Source: Fulvivirgaceae bacterium JP3-4 (GTDB lineage: Bacteria > Bacteroidota > Bacteroidia > Cytophagales > Cyclobacteriaceae). Taken from it: a stretch of 64,000 nucleotides of DNA. The notes beneath the pieces are model-generated. The model did no database searches, was not told where the DNA came from, and worked only from the letters and a program-made list of their open reading frames with translations. Location of the stretch: contig JARKND010000001.1 in NCBI GenBank assembly GCA_029309925.1, positions 2,356,001-2,420,000 of the forward strand. Reading direction: 5' to 3'. This document shows positions 5,225 through 53,941 of the stretch, in pieces; positions within the stretch are counted from its first letter, which is position 1, and every line of letters starts with the position of its first letter. Position numbers and translations under genes: made by a program.

Positions 5225-5788
5225 TCAAACCCTTTTTGGCTTGATCTTTCTTGAAAACCGTACACCGAGATAAACCAGCAAGATTATGAGACAAATAAAG
5301 TACACAGTCGTTGTACCACTCTTCACCACAGAGAAAGAAGAAGCAAGACTGACAGTCCGCTCAGAAATGGTTGGATAGCTGTTGACCATACTGATGAAAA
5401 AGAAGTTCTCTATGTAATCACAGGCACCCGCGATCAACGGAAGATAGGTGACGAAGTTCCAGCGAGTTGAGCTTCCTGCCTTCTTCATAAAATACAGGAA
5501 AATAAGCGAGTAAGTGATTGCGAATAGGCCCGGATAGATCATATCAACCGGGATTTGTTTTGTCAGGTAGGCATCCCTCCCATCCGCGCCAAGCGCTTCG
5601 AGCAACCTGACGACATCATCGTGCGAGTAGCCCATGGGCATCATATCGAGCAGAGGCATCCCACCGGAGAACGCGATGACGTGTGGGATGGTCACCACCA
5701 ACATGAACGTATACACGCAAGAAGTGATGATGAACAACGACAGGACAGTGCGGCCTTTAAGAAATTTATCGGAAGTTAAGCTTCTCAT
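5225..5788 (-). CDS. Four-helix integral membrane protein, function unknown
   Basis: The product has 187 residues with four probable transmembrane helices: about 14-36, 83-102, 111-133 and 158-178. A polar stretch between helices 1 and 2 carries MPLLDMMPMGYSHDD. The C-terminus is basic (RKIKPKR), suggesting it faces the cytoplasm. I recognise no named family. Confidence 0.75.
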   Translation of the reverse strand: MRSLTSDKFLKGRTVLSLFIITSCVYTFMLVVTIPHVIAFSGGMPLLDMMPMGYSHDDVVRLLEALGADGRDAYLTKQIPVDMIYPGLFAITYSLIFLYFMKKAGSSTRWNFVTYLPLIAGACDYIENFFFISMVNSYPTISERTVSLASSFSVVKSGTTTVYFICLIILLVYLGVRFSRKIKPKRV

Positions 5789-11193: not shown

Positions 11194-11464
11194 CGTTTCG
11201 CCTGTTGCAGCTTTCGTTACTTGCCAACCCTCATCGCAGCGCGGTCTTGTCGGTGGGACGGATCGTGGATGTGGCGCAAATTATTTCATAGCGCGTTCAA
11301 ATTAAAGCCCTGTGTAAAGTTTAAATGGCAATGAATTGAAGAATACGTCCGTCTCTAGATGTGTCAGCGGCACTGCAGATTCCGATTCGCTGCCCAAAAA
11401 ATTGCTGACTTGAGCTAGAATAAGCCCGACTGCCAGACATCCAAAATAAAATCTGCCCGTTCTA

Positions 11465-11510
11465 TTGTGAAACCGATCAGTTGCGCATATATTTGCAACC
11501 GAACAGTTGC
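11465..11510 (+). promoter_or_regulatory. Promoter and probable ArsR operator of the operon at 11531
   Basis: A perfect Bacteroidota -7 element TATATTTG lies at 11488-11495, with TTG at 11465-11467 about 20 bases upstream as -33. It is bracketed by a 14-base direct repeat: AACCGATCAGTTGC at 11471-11484 and AACCGAACAGTTGC at 11497-11510 (13 of 14 identical). A regulator bound there would block polymerase; the ArsR-type protein encoded 20 bases downstream is the obvious candidate. Confidence 0.75.
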
Positions 11511-11530
11511 TCTTTTAACCCCGTTAAGAA

Positions 11531-11851
11531 ATGAGAAGAGATATATTTCAGGCGATAGCCGACCCTACGAGAAGGGCGATCATTACCCTCATTGCCGTAC
11601 AGGCAATGACGCCCAATGCCATTGCCGAGAACTTCAACACCACGCGGCAGGCTGTTTCGAAACACCTGCGGATCCTCACAGAGTGCGAGCTCGTGAAACA
11701 GGAACAACAAGGGAGGGAAATTTACTACTCACTTGAATTTGAAAAAATGAAAGAAATAGACAAGTGGCTTAACCAGCTCAGGAAGATCTGGGAGACGCGC
11801 TTCAATCAGCTTGATCAGTTATTATCAACCATGAAAAAACAAAAAAAATGA
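11531..11851 (+). CDS. ArsR-family winged-helix repressor (SdpR-like)
   Basis: The product of 106 residues is a single winged helix: [16 protein letters not shown], then recognition helix [19 protein letters not shown], then wing GREIYYSLE. There are no cysteine metal-site motifs, so it is the non-metal subgroup that usually pairs with AHSA1 proteins. Its stop overlaps the next start in ATGA. It probably represses its own operon. Confidence 0.93.
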
Positions 11852-12345
11852 CAACCAATTCTCTTTTTGATTTCAATGTCGACAAGTCGACAAAGATGGT
11901 GAACATTACCATGGAGTTCGATGCCCATCCGTCACTGGTATGGGATGCTTTCACAAAGCCGGAATTGCTCGATCAATGGTATGCGCCCAAGCCTTTCACA
12001 TCACGAACAAAGTTTATGGATTTCAAAGTAGGCGGCCGCAGGTTTTATGCTATGGTAAGCCCGGACGGAAATGAGCGCTGGGCGGTCCAGAAATATCTTT
12101 CGATCACGCCAAAATCAAATTTTAAAATGTGGAACGTCTTTACAGACAAGGATGAAAATCCTGAACCGCATGGCTCCGACTGGAATTTGAATTTCTCCGA
12201 ATCAAACGGAGGAACAAAAGTGGAGATCAATATTTACAATGAGTCACTTGAACGGATGGAAGGACTACTTGAAGGCTTCAAAGTGGGAATGCGTATGACG
12301 CTGGAAAACCTGCGCGACCTTCTGGAAACCTGGTCGAAGAAATGA
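11848..12345 (+). CDS. SRPBCC/AHSA1 domain protein
   Basis: The product of 165 residues contains the AHSA1 signature: [27 protein letters not shown] near the N-terminus, a beta-sheet core, and a long C-terminal helix ([20 protein letters not shown]). This START-like fold binds hydrophobic ligands. ArsR-AHSA1 operons are common and usually of unknown ligand. It overlaps both neighbours by 4 bases. Confidence 0.9.
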
Positions 12346-12554
12346 TTTACGTTTTTAAGACTTCTGTCAGAACAAAACGTCAGGTTGAAAAACTTCAACC
12401 CCATATCAACTCCATTCTTCCATCGGGAAAGTGGAACTTCGATCTTCTCGACTGCGACAAAATCCTGAGAATCGAGAGCGAAGAAAAACATGTCGTCATG
12501 CAAATAACAGATCTACTCAGTGATCATCAGTTTATCTGCAAAGAGCTGGAATAA
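12342..12554 (+). CDS. Small protein, probable ferredoxin-like fold
   Basis: The product of 70 residues overlaps the AHSA1 gene by 4 bases and ends 2 bases before the DUF1801 gene. The pattern (strand YVFKTSV, helix [14 protein letters not shown], strand [16 protein letters not shown], helix, strand) looks like the HMA-like beta-alpha-beta fold but without the metal-binding CxxC. A structural resemblance only; function unknown. Confidence 0.78.
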
Positions 12555-12556
12555 AC

Positions 12557-12988
12557 ATGAGCGTAAAAGAGCAGATCAACAAATATATCGCTGCCCAGCC
12601 GGAGCCGAAGCGAAGCGATATGCAGCAGTTGCATCTGCTGATACTCAAGATCCTGCCTGAATGCAAACTGTGGTTCCTTGACGGCAGGGATGAGAGCGGA
12701 AAAACTGTTTCAAACGCTAACATCGGATATGGGTCATACACAATGAGATATGCGGATGGCAAAACAAAAGACTTTTACCAGATTGGTATGAGTGGGAATA
12801 CCACTGGCATCTCTGTGTATATCATGGGTATTGAAGATAAGACCTATCTGATAAAAAGTTACGGAAAGAGACTGGGCAAGGCGAGTGTGACCGGTTACTG
12901 TATCAGGTTCACGGCATTAAAAAACATTAATACGGACATCCTGAAAGAAGCAATCCTGGATGGAGTGCAACACAGTGCTTGTGGATGA
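12557..12988 (+). CDS. DUF1801 (YdhG-like) domain protein
   Basis: The product of 143 residues matches the DUF1801 pattern: an N-terminal KEQINKYIAAQPEPKRSDM helix followed by a beta-sheet core with IGYGSYTMRYADGKTKDFY. These proteins share a fold with frataxin-like domains and often accompany AHSA1 genes. It is the last of four tightly packed genes. Confidence 0.85.
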   Translation: MSVKEQINKYIAAQPEPKRSDMQQLHLLILKILPECKLWFLDGRDESGKTVSNANIGYGSYTMRYADGKTKDFYQIGMSGNTTGISVYIMGIEDKTYLIKSYGKRLGKASVTGYCIRFTALKNINTDILKEAILDGVQHSACG

Positions 12989-13392
12989 CGGATGATACAG
13001 GTGAAAAGTTGTGCACATCACAGAAAAAAGATTTCCACAAAAGCTTGATTAGTTCACAAAATGCACGTTTTTTTGTGAATAACTTGTTGACAACGTTCAG
13101 ACAAGGAACAAAAAAAGAGCTTGCCGGGGAACAACAGGAAAACGCTATGGCAATTGCGAAAACATATTATCCTTTAGGCAAGCTCTTTCTAGCCTCAATA
13201 ATACAAAATTAAAGGCCCAACTTCGCCTTCCGGCTCTTCGGTTTTTTCACGATTTCATCCGCCCTGCATTTTCGCAACCCCCTGCCCGATCCATCAAACC
13301 ATTCAAAGAACTTTTCCAATGCTCTGCCGAGTAGACTCGTGCCCAAGTGACAATTATCAGATAGCATTGCGCCACGTAAAACAATATAAAAA
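12989..13392. other. Intergenic region, 404 bases, with a 12-bp inverted repeat
   Basis: No convincing gene is present; a 77-codon forward frame has poor composition. The region is A-rich, with many ACAA and TTGTGAA motifs in 13000-13100. Its main feature is the inverted repeat listed separately. Transcription into it comes from the ArsR operon and it precedes the barrel gene at 13393. Confidence 0.55.
13114..13188 (+). ncRNA. Candidate structured RNA closed by a 12-bp stem
   Basis: AAAGAGCTTGCC at 13114-13125 is perfectly complementary to GGCAAGCTCTTT at 13177-13188. The 51 bases between contain smaller self-complementary stretches. As RNA this would be a closed stem with a large internal loop. 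There is no T-run directly after it, so it is not a plain terminator. Family unknown; 6S-like or cis-element roles are speculation. Confidence 0.35.
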
Positions 13393-39126: not shown

Positions 39127-39738
39127 ATGTCACTAACCCGCATACTGATTGTAGATGACGACCGGGAGGATGCAGAACTGCTCAACGATGCGGTAATGGA
39201 AATCCTTCCTACGGCTGAAAGTCGCATCGCGCAAAGCGCTTCCGCAGCGTTTATGATCGTTGACGACTTTCATCCCCACATCGTATTCCTCGATTCAGTG
39301 ATGTATCCCGTTGGGGGGAAAGAGCTTCTGCGTGAATTTTCAGCCCTGCCCCAGCTCGCTGGTGCGCAATTTATTGTGATGTCTGGCGTAATCCTTCCTG
39401 AGCAACGGGAGGAGTTCACTGCGCTCGGTGCAAATTTCGTGATGACAAAGCCTTCAAACTACGTCACACTCCTTGGATTTGTGGAACACATTCTGGCTGC
39501 GAGCATAATCAACATTCGTGTTAAACTCGTAACGAGCGACAATATCATTCACAACCAGACCGCGGCTCTCGAAACGCTCCTTCAAAGAGATATTAATTTC
39601 GAAATTTCACTGAATGGACAACCGATGCAACAAAATGTTCAGTTTGTTGTCAGCCAGAACGAACTTCGAAGAATCCATTCCGAGTTAGGTTACAACCTGC
39701 TGTGCCTCAGCGGGGGCCACTGGCTGCCTAATATCTGA
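39127..39738 (+). CDS. Response regulator with a C-terminal extension of unknown type
   Basis: The product of 203 residues has an N-terminal receiver (about 1-125) with IVDDDREDAELL, Asp in IVFLDSVMYPVGG (unusual VMYPVGG after the Asp) and Lys in VMTKPSNY. The last 75 residues (ASIINIRVKLVTSDNIIHNQTAALETLLQ onward) do not match a DNA-binding domain I know; they look like a small alpha/beta domain. It follows the RsbR gene. Confidence 0.85.
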   Translation: MSLTRILIVDDDREDAELLNDAVMEILPTAESRIAQSASAAFMIVDDFHPHIVFLDSVMYPVGGKELLREFSALPQLAGAQFIVMSGVILPEQREEFTALGANFVMTKPSNYVTLLGFVEHILAASIINIRVKLVTSDNIIHNQTAALETLLQRDINFEISLNGQPMQQNVQFVVSQNELRRIHSELGYNLLCLSGGHWLPNI

Positions 39739-39921
39739 AAGGTGGCCGATCTACGCGACTCGTTACGACAAGGTAACACCGACACGATATTACCTGTACG
39801 GCAACATATCCCTTAGCGCGCATAAGATTTCATCAGGAGCTGGTCCTGCTCACCGCGGTTGCCTGACGAGGCACCATTCTTAAAGCCTCATCTCCTGCGC
39901 TACACAAATTGATCAGTCCGT

Positions 39922-39953
39922 TTTTAATTCCGTTTTAATTTCGATTGTTTAAT
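39922..39953 (+). promoter_or_regulatory. TTTTAAT repeat cluster A, upstream of a membrane protein gene
   Basis: TTTTAAT occurs at 39922 and 39933 (11 bp apart), with a looser GTTTAAT at 39947. The gene at 40013 begins about 60 bases after the last copy. By the spacing rule of clusters B to D the -7 element should begin at 39972; the sequence there (TGAGACTG) is a poor match. Confidence 0.6.
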
Positions 39954-40012
39954 GTTGTGGGCTGGTTCAGTTGAGACTGTAGTCAGCGAACTTTCATTCA
40001 AAAGTTTAAAGG

Positions 40013-40537
40013 ATGTTACAGATATTTCTTCCTTCGTTCATGATTGTGTTCTATGGCACAATTCTCCTGTGGTCACACATCAGGAAGCACAAAAATGTGC
40101 GTTTAACTCATTCGCACCGGAAAGTGCTGACCGCGGAACTAAGACTTGTGGATGTATTTTTTAAGATACTTCTGTTCCTCAGTATCGTGCTGGCTGTCGT
40201 TTATGCTTATTTTCCGGAGTACTACTATCTCTCAGGTCCTATTGATTCACTTGACATTCCGGTCGTGAATTTTGCAGGAGTTCTTGTTCTGGGCACATCT
40301 TTGATCTGGGTGGTGATGGCGCAGTTCAATGTTGAAAAAACAATAGCGCTGTTAAACTCCGGTGTGGAGAAAAATACTTTCGGTAAATTGCTCTACTATT
40401 CGCAGAAGATGATCCTCACCGGCATGCTGATCATGTTCTTTGGTCTGTTTATTGCGATATCGAGTGTGATGGCGATTCTAATCTGTGTTACGGCTGTTGT
40501 TCTGTTTGACCGCGTTCAGCGAAGGCTCTCATACTGA
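40013..40537 (+). CDS. Membrane protein, function unknown, in two-component locus
   Basis: The product of 174 residues has three probable helices: about 5-24 (FLPSFMIVFYGTILLW), 48-66 (FFKILLFLSIVLAVVYAY), 80-102 (FAGVLVLGTSLIWVV) and a fourth hydrophobic block near 131-160. No domain recognised. The gene lies between TTTTAAT clusters A and B, and its stop is immediately followed by cluster B. It may be a member of the regulon. Confidence 0.72.
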   Translation: MLQIFLPSFMIVFYGTILLWSHIRKHKNVRLTHSHRKVLTAELRLVDVFFKILLFLSIVLAVVYAYFPEYYYLSGPIDSLDIPVVNFAGVLVLGTSLIWVVMAQFNVEKTIALLNSGVEKNTFGKLLYYSQKMILTGMLIMFFGLFIAISSVMAILICVTAVVLFDRVQRRLSY

Positions 40538-40566
40538 TTTTAATTTCATTTTAATCCGTTCTTCAT
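40538..40566 (+). promoter_or_regulatory. TTTTAAT repeat cluster B, upstream of the regulator gene
   Basis: TTTTAAT occurs at 40538 and 40549; a degenerate TCTTCAT (5 of 7) is at 40560. They are exactly 11 bp apart. GAGCTTTG, a one-mismatch match to TAnnTTTG, starts at 40588, exactly 50 bases from the first heptamer, as in clusters C and D. Binding by an OmpR-type regulator is inferred from the 11-bp direct-repeat format. Confidence 0.65.
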
Positions 40567-40587
40567 CTCAGCCTAAGACCGCGCATC

Positions 40588-40595
40588 GAGCTTTG
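40588..40595 (+). promoter_or_regulatory. Putative -7 element for cluster B transcript
   Basis: GAGCTTTG differs from TAnnTTTG only in its first base. Expected transcription start near 40602. The transcript would contain the leader terminator at 40650-40682 and, by read-through, the regulator and kinase genes. Confidence 0.5.
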
Positions 40596-40601
40596 CAAAA
40601 G

Positions 40602-40682
40602 TTTTTGGACTTATTGGTTGTTTGGTAGTACCTTGAGTCTGATGGATTCTCCCCCTCCAGGCCGGAAGGGGATTTTTTATTC
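40602..40682 (+). ncRNA. Candidate short leader RNA / small RNA upstream of regulator
   Basis: This is a predicted transcript of about 80 nt from the cluster B promoter to an intrinsic terminator. It contains no open frame of note. It could be a free small RNA or an attenuated leader for the regulator gene at 40750. No homology is known to me. Confidence 0.4.
40650..40682 (+). terminator. Intrinsic terminator in the leader
   Basis: TCCCC and GGGGA pair as the outer stem, then a mismatch and TCC/GGA, around a 5-base loop, followed by TTTTTT. It precedes the regulator gene by 68 bases, so transcription from upstream would be cut off unless antiterminated. Confidence 0.7.
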
Positions 40683-40749
40683 TTGGCGTTCAGTGCCTTC
40701 ACAAGAGAGTGGTATATACGTATATTAGAGACAGATCAACGAAGTCGTC

Positions 40750-41433
40750 ATGAATATTCTGGTTGTTGAGGATGAGCAGAAGGTAGCGGCCTTTTTAAAA
40801 AACGGGCTTGAAGAGCAGGGCTACAATGTAGATCTGGCCTACGATGGATACACTGGTGAGAAACTTGCTATGAGCAAGGATTATCAGATCATCCTTCTTG
40901 ACGTCATTCTTCCAAAAACAAATGGAATAGACCTTTGCAGGAAGATCAAAAATTCAAAAGGCGATATACCGGTCCTGATGCTTACTGCACTTGGAACCAC
41001 CGATGACAAGCTCGCTGGTTTTGATTCGGGAGCTGATGATTATCTCGTGAAGCCCTTCGAGTTTAAAGAGCTCCTTGCCCGTGTCAAAGCGCTGACAAAG
41101 CGATCGGCCAGGGCGCAGTCACACCAAGCTCCCAATATCCTCACTGTTGCCGATCTTCAGCTCGATATAGACAAGAAAGTTGCGATTCGGGGTGGCAAAT
41201 CGATTTCGCTCACCGCGAAGGAATTCTCGTTGCTTCATTACCTGATGAAAAACAAGGGCCGTGTCATTTCCAGGCTTGACATAGCTGAACATGTGTGGGA
41301 TATTAACTTTGACACTGGTACCAACGTAGTGGAAGTGTACGTAAACATCCTTCGAAAGAAGATAGACAAGGATTTCCCGAACAAACTGATTCAGACGCGG
41401 ATCGGGTTGGGATACACGATTCAGGAAGCATGA
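40750..41433 (+). CDS. OmpR/PhoB-type response regulator
   Basis: The product of 227 residues has a receiver (about 1-120; EDEQKV acidic pocket, Asp in IILLDVILP, Lys in YLVKPFEF). A winged-helix effector follows (about 125-225; LTAKEFSLLHYLMKNKGRVISR, then the recognition helix NVVEVYVNILRKKID). The stop overlaps the kinase gene start (ATGA). It probably binds the TTTTAAT arrays around it. It is closely similar to the regulator at 53255. Confidence 0.95.
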   Translation: MNILVVEDEQKVAAFLKNGLEEQGYNVDLAYDGYTGEKLAMSKDYQIILLDVILPKTNGIDLCRKIKNSKGDIPVLMLTALGTTDDKLAGFDSGADDYLVKPFEFKELLARVKALTKRSARAQSHQAPNILTVADLQLDIDKKVAIRGGKSISLTAKEFSLLHYLMKNKGRVISRLDIAEHVWDINFDTGTNVVEVYVNILRKKIDKDFPNKLIQTRIGLGYTIQEA

Positions 41434-42815
41434 ACATCAGAAGTAAACTCACACTCCGGTTTATTTCAATTACGGCAGTCATCATTCTACTGGGCTCCGT
41501 TTTTATCTATCTCTTTTCGGCAGACTATCGCAGAGAAGACTTTTACAGCCGACTTCAGAACAAAGCCAACAATACAGCAAAACTTCTCATCGAGATTGAG
41601 GAAGTGAACACGGACCTCCTCAGACGACTCGAACGCGACAACCCGATCAGTCTTCCGGATGAGAAAATCATCATCTACAATTTCCGTGACAGCCTGCTCT
41701 TCACTACTGACGAAGAAAAGACAATCAAGGTCGACACGATGTTGCTCGACCGAATCAGGCTGGAAGATGAAGTCAGGTACAAGCAGGACGACTACGAGGT
41801 GCTCGGCTACCTTTTTAAAGGACAGTATGATCGCTTCGTTGTGGTCGCTGCTGCAACCGACATCTACGGCTATAGAAAGCTCCAAAACCTGTTGCTCATC
41901 CTCGCGATTGTTTTCGCGGTAAGTATCGTGATCATTTCCGTGGCCGGGTGGTTCTATGCAGGCAAAGCGCTTCAGCCAATCTCAAAAGTTGTGAATCGCG
42001 TTGATGAAATTTCCATTACAAGCCTCAATCTTCGCGTTGATGAAGGGAACGGTCAGGACGAGATTGCCAAACTTGCCCAGCGTTTCAACAGTATGCTAAG
42101 CCGTCTTGAAAGTGCCTTTGCAACGCAAAAGAATTTTATTTCCAATGCGTCACACGAACTGCGAACTCCCCTCACGGCCGTAACCGGACAACTTGAAGTC
42201 GCCTTGCTCAACGCCAGGTCTGCAGAAGAATATAAAAATGTGATTAACTCGGTGCTTGACGATATTAAAAACTTAAATCGTCTGTCAAATCGCTTGTTGC
42301 TTCTCGCCCAGTCTTCCCTTGAAGAACGTGAAAAGCGAATGATGCTGCTGCGTATCGATGAATTATTGTGGCAGGTGAAAGAGGAATTGCTGAAGCACCA
42401 TCCGGCATTTCGGATCAACATTGACCTTGACGAAACAATTGATGACGAGACAAAGCTGATGATCAAAGGCGATGATCAGCTGATCAAGACCGCATTGTCA
42501 AACATCATTGAAAACGCGTGTAAATACTCCAACGATCGAACGGCACAGGTATTGGTCAGCGGATCAAGGTCCGGACTCGCGCTGACATTCCGGGATAATG
42601 GAATTGGGATTCCTAAAGAAGACCTCGAAAATATTTTTGAACCGTTCTACCGCGGCAGCAACACAACAGACATCAAGGGTCATGGCATCGGCCTATCGAT
42701 GGTAAACAATATTGTCAAACTCCACATGGGCACAATTGCCATCGAATCAAAGCCCGGTATGGGCACAACTGTCACGCTTACCTTTCCGACACACGGTGCA
42801 GCGTTTCCCGGGTAA
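41430..42815 (+). CDS. Transmembrane sensor histidine kinase
   Basis: The product of 461 residues has helix 1 (about 13-32), a periplasmic sensor of about 120 residues, helix 2 (about 155-178), a HAMP domain, a HisKA domain with NASHELRTPLTAV, and an HATPase domain with NIIENACKYSND, DNGIGIPKED, IFEPFYRGSN and GHGIGLSMV. It should control the regulator it overlaps. The sensor is acidic and of unknown ligand. Confidence 0.94.
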   Translation: MNIRSKLTLRFISITAVIILLGSVFIYLFSADYRREDFYSRLQNKANNTAKLLIEIEEVNTDLLRRLERDNPISLPDEKIIIYNFRDSLLFTTDEEKTIKVDTMLLDRIRLEDEVRYKQDDYEVLGYLFKGQYDRFVVVAAATDIYGYRKLQNLLLILAIVFAVSIVIISVAGWFYAGKALQPISKVVNRVDEISITSLNLRVDEGNGQDEIAKLAQRFNSMLSRLESAFATQKNFISNASHELRTPLTAVTGQLEVALLNARSAEEYKNVINSVLDDIKNLNRLSNRLLLLAQSSLEEREKRMMLLRIDELLWQVKEELLKHHPAFRINIDLDETIDDETKLMIKGDDQLIKTALSNIIENACKYSNDRTAQVLVSGSRSGLALTFRDNGIGIPKEDLENIFEPFYRGSNTTDIKGHGIGLSMVNNIVKLHMGTIAIESKPGMGTTVTLTFPTHGAAFPG

Positions 42816-42869
42816 GCAGGCTCCGAAGTTATGTTAAGGTGCTAATGTTTCTGGCAGAATCTTTTTTAC

Positions 42870-42960
42870 CACGCGGAACACCACGAAACACTAAGAAAGT
42901 TGGCAACACCCTTCGTGCACCTTCGAGTCATGGAGCCTTTGTGGCTATGAAGTGGCTGCT
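42870..42960. repeat. CACGAA-rich degenerate intergenic repeat
   Basis: The stretch ACCACGCGGAACACCACGAA... TTCGTGCACCTTCGAG... GGAGCCTTTGTGGC is partly self-complementary and resembles the dispersed 'CACGAAG' filler seen between genes of many bacteria. It is between the kinase stop and cluster C. Probably not functional. Confidence 0.35.
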
Positions 42961-42991
42961 GCAAAAAACATCCTGGCAGTACCGTTGTCGT

Positions 42992-43021
42992 TTTTAATCC
43001 CGTTTTAATTCAGTTTTTAAT
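42992..43021 (+). promoter_or_regulatory. TTTTAAT repeat cluster C
   Basis: TTTTAAT occurs at 42992, 43003 and 43015 (the last offset by one base; TTTTTAA begins at 43014). The -7 element TACTTTTG begins at 43042, exactly 50 bases from the first heptamer. No gene start follows; the transcript ends at the terminator at 43124-43165. Confidence 0.72.
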
Positions 43022-43041
43022 GTGCATTTATAATCTGACAC

Positions 43042-43049
43042 TACTTTTG
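43042..43049 (+). promoter_or_regulatory. -7 element TACTTTTG of a small RNA
   Basis: Exact match to TAnnTTTG. Expected transcription start near 43056. It lies 20 bases after the third TTTTAAT copy of cluster C. Confidence 0.6.
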
Positions 43050-43055
43050 AATCAG

Positions 43056-43165
43056 ATTTTCGGATAAGTAAAAGAATAGGTGTCGCGAGGTTTACAGGAT
43101 TCAGACTTTGTACCTATTCACTGAAGCCCATCGACAGATCATTGTTGATGGGCTTATTCTTTTTT
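43056..43165 (+). ncRNA. Candidate small RNA of about 110 nt
   Basis: A predicted free transcript between the cluster C promoter and a strong intrinsic terminator. No frame with a plausible start and composition fits. Flanking evidence (repeats, -7 element, terminator) is strong; sequence family unknown. It would be made when the adjacent regulator is active (inference). Confidence 0.5.
43124..43165 (+). terminator. Strong intrinsic terminator of the small RNA
   Basis: AAGCCCATC (43124-43132) pairs with GATGGGCTT (43147-43155); the stem extends inwards by GACA/TGTT (one G-U) around a 6-base loop. The tail ATTCTTTTTTC follows. Confidence 0.88.
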
Positions 43166-43179
43166 CATCAGCCCGGTTG

Positions 43180-43208
43180 TTTTAATGGTGAATTAATTTC
43201 GGGTTAAT
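43180..43208 (+). promoter_or_regulatory. TTTTAAT repeat cluster D, upstream of coiled-coil gene
   Basis: Heptamers TTTTAAT (43180), AATTAAT (43191) and GGTTAAT (43202) are exactly 11 bp apart. The -7-like TTAATTTG (one mismatch) starts at 43230, again 50 bases from the first copy. Confidence 0.68.
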
Positions 43209-43229
43209 GCCGCCCTTATCCCTCCAGCG

Positions 43230-43237
43230 TTAATTTG
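43230..43237 (+). promoter_or_regulatory. Putative -7 element of the coiled-coil gene
   Basis: TTAATTTG, one mismatch from TAnnTTTG, 18 bases before the ATG at 43255, implying a leader of about 10 nt. Confidence 0.5.
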
Positions 43238-43254
43238 TTCAAGAAGAAATTACT

Positions 43255-44118
43255 ATGGAAATAACAAAGAGTTCAAAAGCAATTGCCGTGGCGACAACGG
43301 CTTTGTTCGTAGCCTGCTTGTTTTGGCTGATGAACACAAAACGGATCAACAGTTCACTTGAAGCCGGACTTCAGGAAGCAAAGCTTAAGTCGGAGGCGTT
43401 GCTGTCAGAAAAACTCCTGCTTGAGAAAGACATTCAGAAATTCAAAGATCAACTCGCACGCCTGAAGGACGAAAACGGAAGCCTTGACAACCTTCTGAGA
43501 AGCACAAGTGCAAAGTTATCTGATCAGGAGTCTGAGTACAACCGTATGAAACGCGAAAGCGCCTCGCTCGGTCGGATCAGGAAGCAGCGGCAGGAACTTC
43601 AGGCGTTAAAGAGTCAGCTGGAGAATGAACTCACGGCACTGAAAATTTCATATGCCGCTCTCGAAGAAAAGAACAGTAAACTCAACACGATGGTGGCATC
43701 GCTGCAGGAAAGAAATAAAATTCTGAATGACGATCTGAACAAAGCGATGTTTGCAGCGATCGATCAATCGCAGGTTCAGGCAGTGAAAGGAAAAAGTGAC
43801 CGCCTCACTGTCAGAGCAAAGCGGACGAGAAAGCTCATCGCGAATTTTGAAGTTCCTGCAAATCTCAAAAATCTCAGTTTCCGCATTACTGATTCCAAAG
43901 GCTCAGTCCAGACTTCAAACGAAGGTAACATTGCTTTCACTTCTGTGCCATCTGAGAAAAGCTTCACTGCATCTTCAGAAAGAGAGGCGGAAGGAAACCG
44001 ATTACAAAAGGTCGAGATGGTTTACATCCCGAAAGAGAAGTTGAGGACAGGACTTTACACCGTTGAGATCCTGAACGATTACCTGTATGTGGGCAGTTTG
44101 AAGGTTAAGCTGAAGTAG
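43255..44118 (+). CDS. Membrane-anchored coiled-coil protein
   Basis: The product of 287 residues has one N-terminal transmembrane helix (about 10-26) and a long coiled coil (about 30-175; heptads such as LLEKDIQKFKDQLARLKDENGSLDN). A C-terminal beta-rich domain follows (about 185-287; RLTVRAKRTRKLIANFEVPANLKNLSFRI...). The layout resembles periplasmic scaffold proteins. It is controlled by cluster D and ends in a strong terminator. Function unknown. Confidence 0.82.
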   Translation: MEITKSSKAIAVATTALFVACLFWLMNTKRINSSLEAGLQEAKLKSEALLSEKLLLEKDIQKFKDQLARLKDENGSLDNLLRSTSAKLSDQESEYNRMKRESASLGRIRKQRQELQALKSQLENELTALKISYAALEEKNSKLNTMVASLQERNKILNDDLNKAMFAAIDQSQVQAVKGKSDRLTVRAKRTRKLIANFEVPANLKNLSFRITDSKGSVQTSNEGNIAFTSVPSEKSFTASSEREAEGNRLQKVEMVYIPKEKLRTGLYTVEILNDYLYVGSLKVKLK

Positions 44119-44190: not shown

Positions 44191-44598
44191 ATGACAAAAT
44201 CGCAATGTTGTCTCCTTGTGGAAGACGATCCGGAAGATCAGGAATTGTTTCTCGAGGCGTTGCATTCGATGACCTCATCAGTCGGATGTTTCGCAGTAAA
44301 TAACGGTGAAGAAGCTTTACTCACTCTTATGCATAAGGATGTCATGCCGGATTACATCTTTACCGATCTCAATATGCCGAAGATGAATGGGCTTGAGTTG
44401 CTTGAGGCACTCAGGGGTTTCGAAAAGTTTCGTTCAATTCCTGTGATTGTTTTCTCATCCAACTGTTCGGATGATGTCGTCAGGCAAGCAATGCAACTTG
44501 GCGCCAGAGCCGTCTACTCGAAGAACAGATTTGGAATGGTAGTTGAAGTGATCCGGAAGTATTTCCCCGAGGCCTCGAGCCGGGCAACTTTGCTTTGA
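44191..44598 (+). CDS. Receiver-only response regulator
   Basis: The product of 135 residues is one receiver: LLVEDDPEDQELF, Asp in YIFTDLNMPKMNG, Ser in VFSSN and a shifted Lys (AVYSKNRFG). It follows the terminator at 44172 with only 18 bases, so its promoter must overlap the hairpin or it relies on read-through. No output domain. Confidence 0.92.
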   Translation: MTKSQCCLLVEDDPEDQELFLEALHSMTSSVGCFAVNNGEEALLTLMHKDVMPDYIFTDLNMPKMNGLELLEALRGFEKFRSIPVIVFSSNCSDDVVRQAMQLGARAVYSKNRFGMVVEVIRKYFPEASSRATLL

Positions 44599-51123: not shown

Positions 51124-51792
51124 TCAGACTGCGAGCACAGGAAGTCCAAATTCCTCGTCAGAGCCATCAGTGAAATCGTTGGATGCAGCACTTCGCTTTC
51201 CCTTTACAATCAGGTCAATTTCCATACTTTTAACGATCGACTTTACGGACTCACCTTCGGGTATCATCGATTTGTGGATCACATGAAAAGCATATTGCTG
51301 GATAGCCGGAATGTGAGCGGTGTGAGAATCTCCAAGGTAAAGTGCCCGCTGAATTCCGTGATGAGGGATTCCATCCTGCGGAAGTAGCATCATGGGACAC
51401 CCTGACTGATGCAGCAAACGCATGGCGAACTGATGAACAAACTGCTTGCTCCTGGTAAACGACCGGGGCACTATGACCATTCCAACTTCGAATTTGCTCA
51501 GCAGGTTCTTCATGAGTGGCCTCGACAGGCCGAACTGGTGATCCACTTTAATTTTTTCCCTGAACTTCTTATCGAATTCGCGATTACAGAAATCCAGAAT
51601 ATTGTTCCGCTTCTCCAGATCGACAGCGGCCGCAGATGAGGTGAACAGAAGTTCGGTAATGGAGTCTCCAAGTGGTGAAATACTTAGCAGCACAATTTGC
51701 TTTGCATCCGCAGGACGGAGTTCAGCCGCAGCTTTAAGCGCGTGCTCTGTGTCCGATTCAAAAAGTGTTGGTATCAGAATGTTTGTTGTCAT
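51124..51792 (-). CDS. Universal stress protein-like protein
   Basis: The product of 222 residues has the UspA start ILIPTLFESDTEHALKAAAELRPADAKQIVLL. It is degenerate: the ATP-binding motif GxxGxxxxG is absent, and it is longer than a single Usp domain. It lies in line with the kinase/regulator pair and upstream of the bestrophin. Confidence 0.78.
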   Translation of the reverse strand: MTTNILIPTLFESDTEHALKAAAELRPADAKQIVLLSISPLGDSITELLFTSSAAAVDLEKRNNILDFCNREFDKKFREKIKVDHQFGLSRPLMKNLLSKFEVGMVIVPRSFTRSKQFVHQFAMRLLHQSGCPMMLLPQDGIPHHGIQRALYLGDSHTAHIPAIQQYAFHVIHKSMIPEGESVKSIVKSMEIDLIVKGKRSAASNDFTDGSDEEFGLPVLAV

Positions 51793-51876
51793 AATGCTTC
51801 CGTTTTGTTTATGTACAAATAAACGGTTGTGCTATTAAGACGTCCTGATGAGAGGATTAAACGATGATGAAAAGAT

Positions 51877-51894
51877 TTCTAATAAGATTCTAAT
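51877..51894. promoter_or_regulatory. TTCTAAT direct repeat, 11 bp apart, near second two-component locus
   Basis: TTCTAAT at 51877 and 51888 is the same heptamer format as the TTTTAAT arrays in 39.9-43.2 kb. It overlaps the 3' end of the kinase gene and lies about 85 bases upstream of the Usp gene start on the minus strand. In that direction the repeats read ATTAGAA. Confidence 0.45.
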
Positions 51895-53251
51895 CCCGGT
51901 CGCCTCGCGGAAAACGCAGAGTAACTTTCGTGCCCACCTGTTGTTTTGAGAAAACTTTCAGTTCGCCTCCGTGAAGCCTGACGATCCGTGCCGCCAACGG
52001 CAAGCCAATTCCATGACCTTTGTATGGCATGGTATTGCTTCCGCGGAAAAAAGGTTCGAAGATGTGTTCCATATCTTGTTCGCTGATACCAATTCCGCGA
52101 TCGGAGATCTCAATAAAAAATTCCGAATCCGAAGCAGACAACGTTACCAGTACCTCATTGTTGTCGGAATACTTAACGCTGTTCTGAATGATATTCGTAA
52201 GCGCAAGTTCCATCCAGATACCGGAACCCACAATCGTATACACATCCGGATTATTCTCGACATTCTGCACCATGACTTTGACCTTATTCTGAGGCATCCG
52301 CTGATCAAGACTGATCTTGATGCTCATCAGCAACTCATCAACCTGGAAAGGTTCTATCTTTTGTTTTTTCCCGTCATAGCTGATGTTTGAGAGGTTAAGA
52401 AGAGATGACGTGACATCATGCAGGTTTTTTGCTTCATGTTGAATAACTCTTAGTGAACTGATATATTCTTCAGGTTTTCTTTGACTTTGCAGACTCAGCT
52501 CAGCCTCTCCCAGGATTGATGTGAGTGGTGTATTTAACTCATGGGATGCATTGCTGATAAAATTTCGTTGTAATTCAAAAGTAGTTTCGAGCCGCTCAAG
52601 CATGTTGTTAAATGTTGTAGCGATCTCCGCGATTTCATCTTTACCGTTGCCGGTGGGAAGTCTGTCGCTGAGATTTGTTGCTGTGATCTCATGCACCCTG
52701 GAAATTATTCGTGAAACAGGGCTCATTATTCTATTGGCAAAAAGCCTTCCCAGCGCGAATACGAGAATTGAACTCGCTGCAAATCCTATGATGAACATGT
52801 TGCGAAGAAATTCAAAATAATCTTCGCCACTCTCATCGTAAGCGCTTGCAATAACAAACTGATCAGACCCGGGGGATGGATACGCCAGTCCGCTGTAGTG
52901 CATAAAGCCTTTACTCATTTGGGCCGATCCGGATTTTCTGAGCTCTTCAATAAACTCGTCTGTTACCTGCGGCAGGCGAAGCTTTACTTCACGCGCAAGC
53001 GTTTCACCGTTGAAAAAAAGCTCCTGCTGCCTGGGCAATGTCTCCATGTGACGTTCCCGCGTCTCCATGACATTCGTATTTCCATTGCTGAAGTGATTTT
53101 CAGCTGCCATCGAGGCTCTCACCGTCAAGCGGGTGAAGAAATATGTTCTCGAATGCTCGAGCGCGACAACGTATACAAAAATGCTCAGCATGAGAAGAAT
53201 TGTTGCCGTCATGAGCGTAAACACAAGGGAAATTTTGGTCCTGATCTGCAT
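51890..53251 (-). CDS. Transmembrane sensor histidine kinase (CusS-like)
   Basis: The product of 453 residues has an N-terminal helix, a periplasmic sensor rich in Met and His (MET RERHMETLP region near 65), a second helix (about 145-165), HAMP, HisKA with NASHELNTPLTSI (HELNTP instead of HELRTP) and HATPase (NIIQNSVKYSDN, DRGIGISEQDMEHIFEPFFRGSN, GHGIGLPLA). Its gene begins 3 bases after the regulator stop. Metal sensing is suggested by neighbours. Confidence 0.93.
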   Translation of the reverse strand: MQIRTKISLVFTLMTATILLMLSIFVYVVALEHSRTYFFTRLTVRASMAAENHFSNGNTNVMETRERHMETLPRQQELFFNGETLAREVKLRLPQVTDEFIEELRKSGSAQMSKGFMHYSGLAYPSPGSDQFVIASAYDESGEDYFEFLRNMFIIGFAASSILVFALGRLFANRIMSPVSRIISRVHEITATNLSDRLPTGNGKDEIAEIATTFNNMLERLETTFELQRNFISNASHELNTPLTSILGEAELSLQSQRKPEEYISSLRVIQHEAKNLHDVTSSLLNLSNISYDGKKQKIEPFQVDELLMSIKISLDQRMPQNKVKVMVQNVENNPDVYTIVGSGIWMELALTNIIQNSVKYSDNNEVLVTLSASDSEFFIEISDRGIGISEQDMEHIFEPFFRGSNTMPYKGHGIGLPLAARIVRLHGGELKVFSKQQVGTKVTLRFPRGDRD

Positions 53252-53254
53252 GCG

Positions 53255-53941
53255 CTATTCGCTCTCTTCACGTAACACATAACCCATTCCCACAACGGTA
53301 TGGATAAGCTTTTTCGAACCCTCCCGATCTATCTTTCTTCTGACATAGTTCACGTAAACGTCAACCACGTTGGTATTGGTATCGAAATGAATATCCCACA
53401 CGCGCTCCATAATCTGGCTTCTTGAAAATACCTGCCCTTTGTTTTTAAGAAGGAATTCGAGAAGGTTGTATTCTTTGGCGGTAAGGTTTATTCGCTCTCC
53501 ATTGCGCGTGACAATTTTTCCCCGCGTGTCGACCAGAAGGTCGTCTGCCGAAAGGAGATATTCATTGGCGGTCGTTACTGCTGACGATCGTCTCGTCACT
53601 GCAGCGATCCGCGCAAGCAATTCGGCAACCCGAAAAGGTTTTACCACGTAGTCGTCCGCACCTGTCTGAAGGCCCGTTACAACGTTCTCTGAGGTCCCCA
53701 GAGCAGTCAGCATAATAATGGGCGTATTGATCTTCATGCCCCTTACTTTCCTGCACAACTCGATCCCATTCATTCCGGGAAGCATCAGGTCGAGCAGAAT
53801 AATGTCAGGTGACGCAGACTGAATCATTTGCAGCCCTGTGACGCCATCCATTGCCACTGATACGCTGTGGTTTGCCTCCATCAATCCTCTTCGAATGAAA
53901 GAAATGACGTTCGGTTCATCTTCAATAAGGAGTACATTCAT
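53255..53941 (-). CDS. OmpR/PhoB-type response regulator (CusR-like)
   Basis: The product of 228 residues has a receiver (IEDEPNVISF acidic pocket, Asp in ILLDLMLPG, Lys in YVVKPFR). A winged helix (about 128-226; LTAKEYNLLEFLLKNKGQVFSR and NVVDVYVNYVRRKID) follows. It is similar to the regulator at 40750. The gene is divergent from the metal-binding protein genes at 54183. Confidence 0.94.
   Translation of the reverse strand: MNVLLIEDEPNVISFIRRGLMEANHSVSVAMDGVTGLQMIQSASPDIILLDLMLPGMNGIELCRKVRGMKINTPIIMLTALGTSENVVTGLQTGADDYVVKPFRVAELLARIAAVTRRSSAVTTANEYLLSADDLLVDTRGKIVTRNGERINLTAKEYNLLEFLLKNKGQVFSRSQIMERVWDIHFDTNTNVVDVYVNYVRRKIDREGSKKLIHTVVGMGYVLREESE

Follow-up and report, generated by a model that had tools for sequence, protein, structure and literature searches.

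How does a two-component system mark the promoters that it controls? The question is raised by a locus in the window analysed here, 64000 nt inside a 5.8-Mb genome of the genus Chryseosolibacter, where four clusters (A-D) of TTTTAAT-like heptamers lie around the genes of an OmpR/PhoB-type response regulator and a sensor kinase. A preliminary description of this DNA had noted the clusters, and we found them where it placed them. We argue here that the arrays are very probably operators of the adjacent regulator, which is predicted from the sequence to activate a local regulon through them.

Layout of the heptamer arrays

Just three copies of the exact pair TTTTAAT-N4-TTTTAAT exist in the whole genome, at 39922, 40538 and 42992, and the reversed control gave zero. 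These positions open clusters A, B and C, which, like D, are on the plus strand. Cluster B (40538-40577) is a four-repeat array of TTTTAAT, TTTTAAT, TCTTCAT and GCCTAAG; cluster C (42992-43031) reads TTTTAAT, TTTTAAT, TTTTTAA(T) and CATTTAT; and cluster D (43180-43219) is degenerate, with TTTTAAT, AATTAAT, GGTTAAT and CCCTTAT. The fourth repeat, at +33, is degenerate in all of B, C and D. Cluster A (39922-39953) has in-phase heptamers at 39922 and 39933 and then an out-of-phase GTTTAAT at 39947. The 11-bp spacing first reported for these clusters holds for the exact pairs of A-C; it fails for the third copy in A, which lies 14 bp after the second and breaks the phase, and for the third exact TTTTAAT in C, 12 bp past the second.

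The -7 box of Bacteroidota sigma-A promoters is quoted as TAnnTTTG in PMC7366714, and its consensus and location, -12 to -5, are given in PMC7366714 and PMC9723704. An element of this kind begins 50 bp downstream of the first base of the array in B (GAGCTTTG, 40588-40595, 5/6), C (TACTTTTG, 43042-43049, 6/6) and D (TTAATTTG, 43230-43237, 5/6), all on the plus strand, which bears out the constant offset in the preliminary description. Matches of at least 5/6 occur at 373 of the 64000 plus-strand positions of the window (0.58%), so the probability that B and D would both share the offset of C by chance is about 3e-5. Cluster A, said earlier to lack a good -7 match, scores 3/6 at +50.

A composite pattern of array, 50-bp offset and TAnnTTTG, with up to 3 mismatches, had 6 matches genome-wide and 1 in the reversed control. 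Cluster C matched with 0 mismatches and B with 1; A, D, a minus-strand array at 51816-51873 and one other site had 3 each. Cluster A is among these matches because 3 mismatches were allowed, and all three fall in its -7 box; it is not an array-plus-promoter unit. The earlier proposal that the layout defines a regulon from sequence is supported for the local arrangement. Genome-wide, the regulon found by the strict pattern amounts to about this locus and a paralogous one.

Conservation of the array in relatives

Cluster D precedes the gene of a 287-amino-acid coiled-coil protein (43255-44118, plus strand), its presumed target. With E <= 1e-6 as the threshold, the profile of this protein family had matches in 100 of the 295 family genomes, many of these being weak; 27 loci matched strongly (E <= 3.1e-34). 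The set of upstream regions consisted of the 27 strong loci plus records L107 and L108, minus L127 at a contig edge, giving 28 with the window's own included. The repeats had been proposed to recur at orthologous loci, and an array scoring at least 16/21 was indeed present in 26 of the 28 regions (shuffle p <= 0.014 in each; best scores on the opposite strand 11-16). A kinase sequence lay close by in 26 of the 28 loci, with none in L124 and L134. The position of cluster D upstream of the coiled-coil gene family is therefore conserved; in the window's own locus and in C. indicus PWU20 (G001) the best array was of the C type, not D.

The 50-bp offset was also the sole peak across relatives. A -7 match of at least 5/6 at +50 was found in 12 of the 26 arrays, and other offsets between 30 and 70 reached at most 1. 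With one array per genus, the +50 box was present in 9 of 16 (two single records counted as genera). When the promoter stretches were shuffled, the count never exceeded 4 in 2000 trials. In the alignment, position 36 is T and position 38 is A in the fourth repeat (+33) of 16 of 16, which indicates that the operator consists of four repeats, spans 40 bp and ends 10 bp before the -7 box. An array upstream of the regulator gene itself was seen in 5 of 23 loci at shuffle p <= 0.025, three of them from Chryseosolibacter.

Could AT-rich intergenic DNA yield such repeats and -7 matches by chance? Both the heptamers and the boxes are AT-rich, and a looser three-copy pattern with up to 2 mismatches matched 139 of the 295 family genomes; reversed controls likewise had matches in many genomes. 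However, chance AT-richness is contradicted by the genome-wide count of exact pairs, three at one locus with a reversed control of zero, by the shuffles against which +50 is the only peak, and by the conserved array position. We regard it as extremely improbable, in line with the earlier judgement that the layout is hard to explain by chance.

At L042, L044, L050 and other loci, family genomes were seen to contain copies of a different repeated motif, TTTTCATNTGTTTATAATTTGATTTTTAAT, with ten matches in G294; it is perhaps an unrelated repeat or operator family.

Regulator helix and repeat base

The response regulator (40750-41433, plus strand) combines Response_reg and Trans_reg_C domains (PF00072, 99.5 bits, and PF00486, 83.7 bits, both over the cutoff), placing it in the OmpR/PhoB type, and head-to-tail sites about one helical turn apart lie near its promoters, as that type would have them. 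Its presumed recognition helix is VVEVYVNILRKKI. The sensor histidine kinase gene (41430-42815, plus strand) encodes HAMP, HisKA and HATPase_c domains. The best-scoring NCBIfam subfamilies were CusR/CopR for the regulator (TIGR01387, 254.9 bits, under the 279.2 cutoff) and CusS/CopS for the kinase (TIGR01386, 213.6 bits, under the 292.55 cutoff), so that neither protein belongs to these subfamilies by score.

A further 80 kinase/regulator loci of the family, among the matches listed, were pooled with the earlier loci. Both genes were present in 103 loci (L218 had no regulator match), and exclusion of paralogue W2 gave 102. For each locus four stretches were scored, namely both strands of the DNA that precedes the regulator and of that which follows the kinase, and the best of the four was used. 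A score of at least 14/18 on three copies of TTNTAAT was reached in 82 of the 102, some of which are chance at that threshold. The third base of the heptamer was then tallied in a tree set of 81, counting only repeats that match TTNTAAT at 5/6 or better.

The eighth residue of the helix (VVEVYVN-I-LRKK here) is associated with this base. Every non-Tyr row lacked C in the counted repeats (34/34), and 43 of the 47 Tyr rows had at least one. By majority of counted repeats, 48 Tyr rows divided into 31 with C, 12 mixed and 5 with T. Two Phe rows nested within the Tyr rows (L194 and L198) had T arrays. The Tyr/non-Tyr label requires five changes on the tree, three of them being forced by well-supported branches; of three independent pairs, an average of 2.5 have the base shifting in the matching direction and none in the reverse one. 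That base 3 follows the helix residue of the neighbouring regulator ties the arrays to that regulator, though through few independent switches. Its identity, put forward earlier as an inference, thus gains support from this co-variation and from adjacency across genera.

A different protein might bind the arrays instead, for example the paralogous OmpR-type regulator encoded at 53255-53941 on the minus strand, or a global factor. The paralogous system has a degenerate array of its own (51816-51873, minus strand) with TTTATTTG at the same +50 offset, so cross-recognition is conceivable. This explanation would leave unaccounted for both the presence of a kinase of the group studied here next to the arrays at 26 of the 28 loci and the tracking of base 3 by the neighbouring helix, and we consider it very unlikely.

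The distance to the promoter also varied in the wider set. Among rows whose box scores 5/6 or better, the non-Tyr group had it at +50 in 10 and at +61/62 in 5, and the Tyr group at +50 in 14, at +61/62 in 25 and at +56 in 4; other offsets were each found in 1 or 2 rows. The F/I-IDVYIN clade alone contributed 19 rows at +62. With offsets of +50 and +61/62 alike, the regulator could touch polymerase from one and the same helical face.

Proposed mechanism of activation

In the mechanism that we propose, the phosphorylated regulator would bind head-to-tail with one molecule per 11-bp heptamer, so that four repeats would accommodate two dimers. Because the repeats end 10 bp before the -7 box, bound regulator would occupy roughly the place of a -33 element, from which it could recruit RNA polymerase of the sigma-A type (class II activation). 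The predicted target of array D is the coiled-coil membrane protein gene and that of array C a candidate small RNA, and array B may drive a short terminated transcript or leader before the regulator's own gene.

OmpR/PhoB-family proteins can activate or repress, and the arrays might accordingly be repressor sites or act both ways. Cluster A, with its repeats and no promoter element, would suit that interpretation. In contrast, the fixed spacing to the -7 box, and offsets among paralogues that differ by about one helical turn, fit polymerase contact. Repression or dual action is therefore unlikely in our estimate.

Several observations weigh against activation by the adjacent regulator and should be set beside this mechanism. 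Only C has a full -7 match, B and D reaching 5/6 only, and A shows none at +50. Among the relatives, the upstream regions of L118 and L129 (2/28) contain no array, 14 of the 26 arrays score under 5/6 at +50, and arrays at the regulator gene are rare outside the genus. In the helix comparison, weaker third repeats with C occur in the non-Tyr rows L166, L174, L181 and L071, and the roughly three well-supported switches are too few for a significant sign test. Finally, a hairpin behind promoter B would halt transcription into the regulator gene unless it is leaky or a second promoter exists.

Candidate RNAs behind arrays B and C

The preliminary description had missed that arrays B and C each lead into a terminator-like hairpin. 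Behind B lies a candidate short RNA or leader of ~80 nt (40600-40682, plus strand), with a GC-rich hairpin and a T run before the regulator gene, and this arrangement is present in 3/3 of the Chryseosolibacter genomes examined. Given the hairpin, B is perhaps not just a promoter for the regulator gene. Behind C lies a candidate small RNA of ~110 nt (43054-43166, plus strand) with a GGTTTACAGGAT loop and a AAGCCCATC...GATGGGCTT terminator; it has relatives in C. indicus, in C. histidini PWU4 (G002), which like C. indicus is a Chryseosolibacter, and in G150, from another genus. In both B and C a terminator stands no more than 250 bp behind the array promoter in intergenic DNA, an arrangement expected of the CiaRH system with its cia-dependent small RNAs (csRNAs).

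Thirty loci were examined upstream of the regulator, 24 from the 80 new ones and 6 others, and an array of at least 16/21 was present in 6. Four of these 6, those of the three Chryseosolibacter genomes and of G150, also had such a hairpin. The C element stands directly behind an array promoter in four genomes (G000, G001, G002 and G150) of two genera. These elements share GTTTACAG or GTTTTACAG together with an AAGCCCA terminator, and compensatory changes were found in 2 of 13 terminator pairs among three of the sequences. TTTACAG-N2-32-AAGCCCA had 66 matches in 28 genomes and its reversed controls 49; taken by itself the motif is thus close to chance, and only the four copies behind an array were counted. 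The covariance model R1 gave 118.6, 98.4 and 82.9 bits for its training genomes and 44.3 bits for the next; it reached E <= 0.1 in 30 of 98 genomes, G150 not being among the 98; three of the 30 are the training genomes, and the other 27 are matches by score alone. No Rfam family reached its gathering score at 39700-43400 with E up to 5. The only sub-threshold matches were NsiR1 at 40623-40680 (20.7 bits versus 39) and mir-1954 (17.4 versus 99).

Might these candidates be something other than small RNAs? B could be an ordinary autoregulated promoter whose hairpin is a leader attenuator or leaky terminator, with C and D as tandem promoters of the coiled-coil gene separated by a leaky terminator, and there would then be no functional small RNAs. 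Both hairpins are indeed placed after an array promoter and before a gene of the same strand, and a 28-codon ATG frame (40642-40728) crosses the B hairpin in the manner of a leader peptide. In G150 the C-like element comes directly before a single-domain receiver gene. Against this, the coiled-coil gene has its own array promoter, D, downstream of C, and the C element keeps its GTTTACAG-like motif and AAGCCCA terminator before genes as different as the regulator (G002), coiled-coil proteins (G000 and G001, in the latter between two such genes) and the receiver (G150).

The reading frames bear on the same choice. In C, frames open from GTG or TTG, and the sole ATG frame of at least 6 codons lies in the terminator. 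The short frames of the relatives had, by eye, no evident sequence in common. From this survey a small RNA is the likelier reading for candidate C and one possible reading for B; a frame in B or C may also encode a peptide. The C loop offers the leader reading some support. Its 13-base motif, with at most 1 mismatch, occurs at 15 genome sites (L090-L104, the RNA itself included) versus 3 for the reversed control, and the contexts of these 15 sites contained no convincing mRNA target. Site L101 lies 39 nt before an ATG that opens 74 codons, a few others fall within open frames, and a match at 40004 is of the same sense, not complementary. On balance we find an attenuator or leader without functional small RNAs quite possible, if somewhat short of probable.

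In C. indicus L069 (reversed coordinates 11266-13392), two tandem coiled-coil genes were seen, each with its own array and with a C-type RNA between them.

Neighbouring genes

The 287-amino-acid protein behind cluster D was modelled as one long helix (7-168) followed by six beta strands, the helix presumably forming a membrane anchor plus coiled coil. It had no Pfam match above cutoff. The matches from a fold search were weak and for the most part Ig-like, the best having E 0.014 and none reaching 0.001, and were not used. Because of the likely membrane anchor, our guess is that it has an envelope function. A single-domain receiver gene (44191-44598) follows; it has similar counterparts close to this system in G001, in G150 and at five other loci.

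Cluster A precedes the gene (40013-40537, plus strand) of a 174-amino-acid predicted membrane protein, so called from its hydrophobic sequence, that is nearly absent from relatives, which leaves a site with no obvious job. The protein had no Pfam or NCBIfam match. Its gene was matched in 2 of 59 genomes searched, its own and G029, and the 400 bp upstream of the two G029 homologues contained no array.

In the paralogous system the array lies between the kinase gene (51890-53251, minus strand, 36% identical) and a Usp-like gene (51124-51792, minus strand), whose Usp score is under the cutoff. A bestrophin-family gene also follows this system (51124-53941, minus strand).

Relation to known systems

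The Cus box is palindromic, unlike the direct repeats found here, and the PmrA box has a CTTAA-type core. With 166.3 bits, the regulator here falls short of the PmrA cutoff of 330. A PmrA effector domain binds tandem imperfect repeats (the PmrA box), as described in PMC3973317, and in this respect our arrays are similar. According to PMC4832192, PhoP of M. tuberculosis recognises 7-bp motifs repeated directly with 4 bp between them; the 7+4 format is the same here, a likeness of format between different lineages from which no membership is claimed.

The closest working parallel is CiaR of Streptococcus. In PMC3091779 its helix is VVEVYVSKVRKKL, very similar to VVEVYVNILRKKI here, its site is TTTAAG-N5-TTTAAG, and csRNA genes were predicted from such sites together with a -10 box and a terminator. 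Shared with that system are the 11-bp direct repeat, a fixed distance to a promoter box (-10 there) and terminator-ended small RNAs, which are candidates here. Unlike CiaRH, the present system has four repeats rather than two, a Bacteroidota -7 promoter and a coiled-coil gene in the module, and the final base of the window's exact pairs is T rather than G, so that TTTAAG-N5-TTTAAG itself does not occur in them. The likeness between the csRNAs and our candidates, which are known from sequence alone, is put forward as one of design. The coiled-coil and regulator genes of a divergent pair at L073 (reversed coordinates 5600-5720) have in common a series of about six TTTAAG-like heptamers in steps of about 11 bp, counted by eye, which come closer to the CiaR letter.

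We tentatively suggest, as something well worth entertaining though not yet probable, that a broad OmpR-type clade in this Bacteroidota order lets one helix residue specify one DNA letter (Tyr for TTCTAAT; Ile, Met or Phe for TTTTAAT), with four-repeat arrays whose distance from the -7 box is 50 bp or roughly one helical turn more. Its Chryseosolibacter branch would directly drive a small-RNA family that conserves a GTTTACAG element, a CiaRH-like design to which a second phylum would have come independently.

To our knowledge, operators of two-component systems in soil Bacteroidota have rarely been mapped. A full-text literature search, with its scope mostly outside subscription journals, gave no description of these sites among the matches listed. 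The kind of system is known; this member is new and well supported, its operator rule is unusually readable, and a small-RNA arm would be a plausible addition. Under the rule, a kinase of this group together with a single residue of the helix allows the letter of the operator and the place of the promoter to be predicted, which makes regulon prediction and a specificity swap straightforward. If the candidate RNAs are real, this would be a two-component system directly driving small RNAs in Bacteroidota, and the CiaRH-type design would extend beyond the streptococci.

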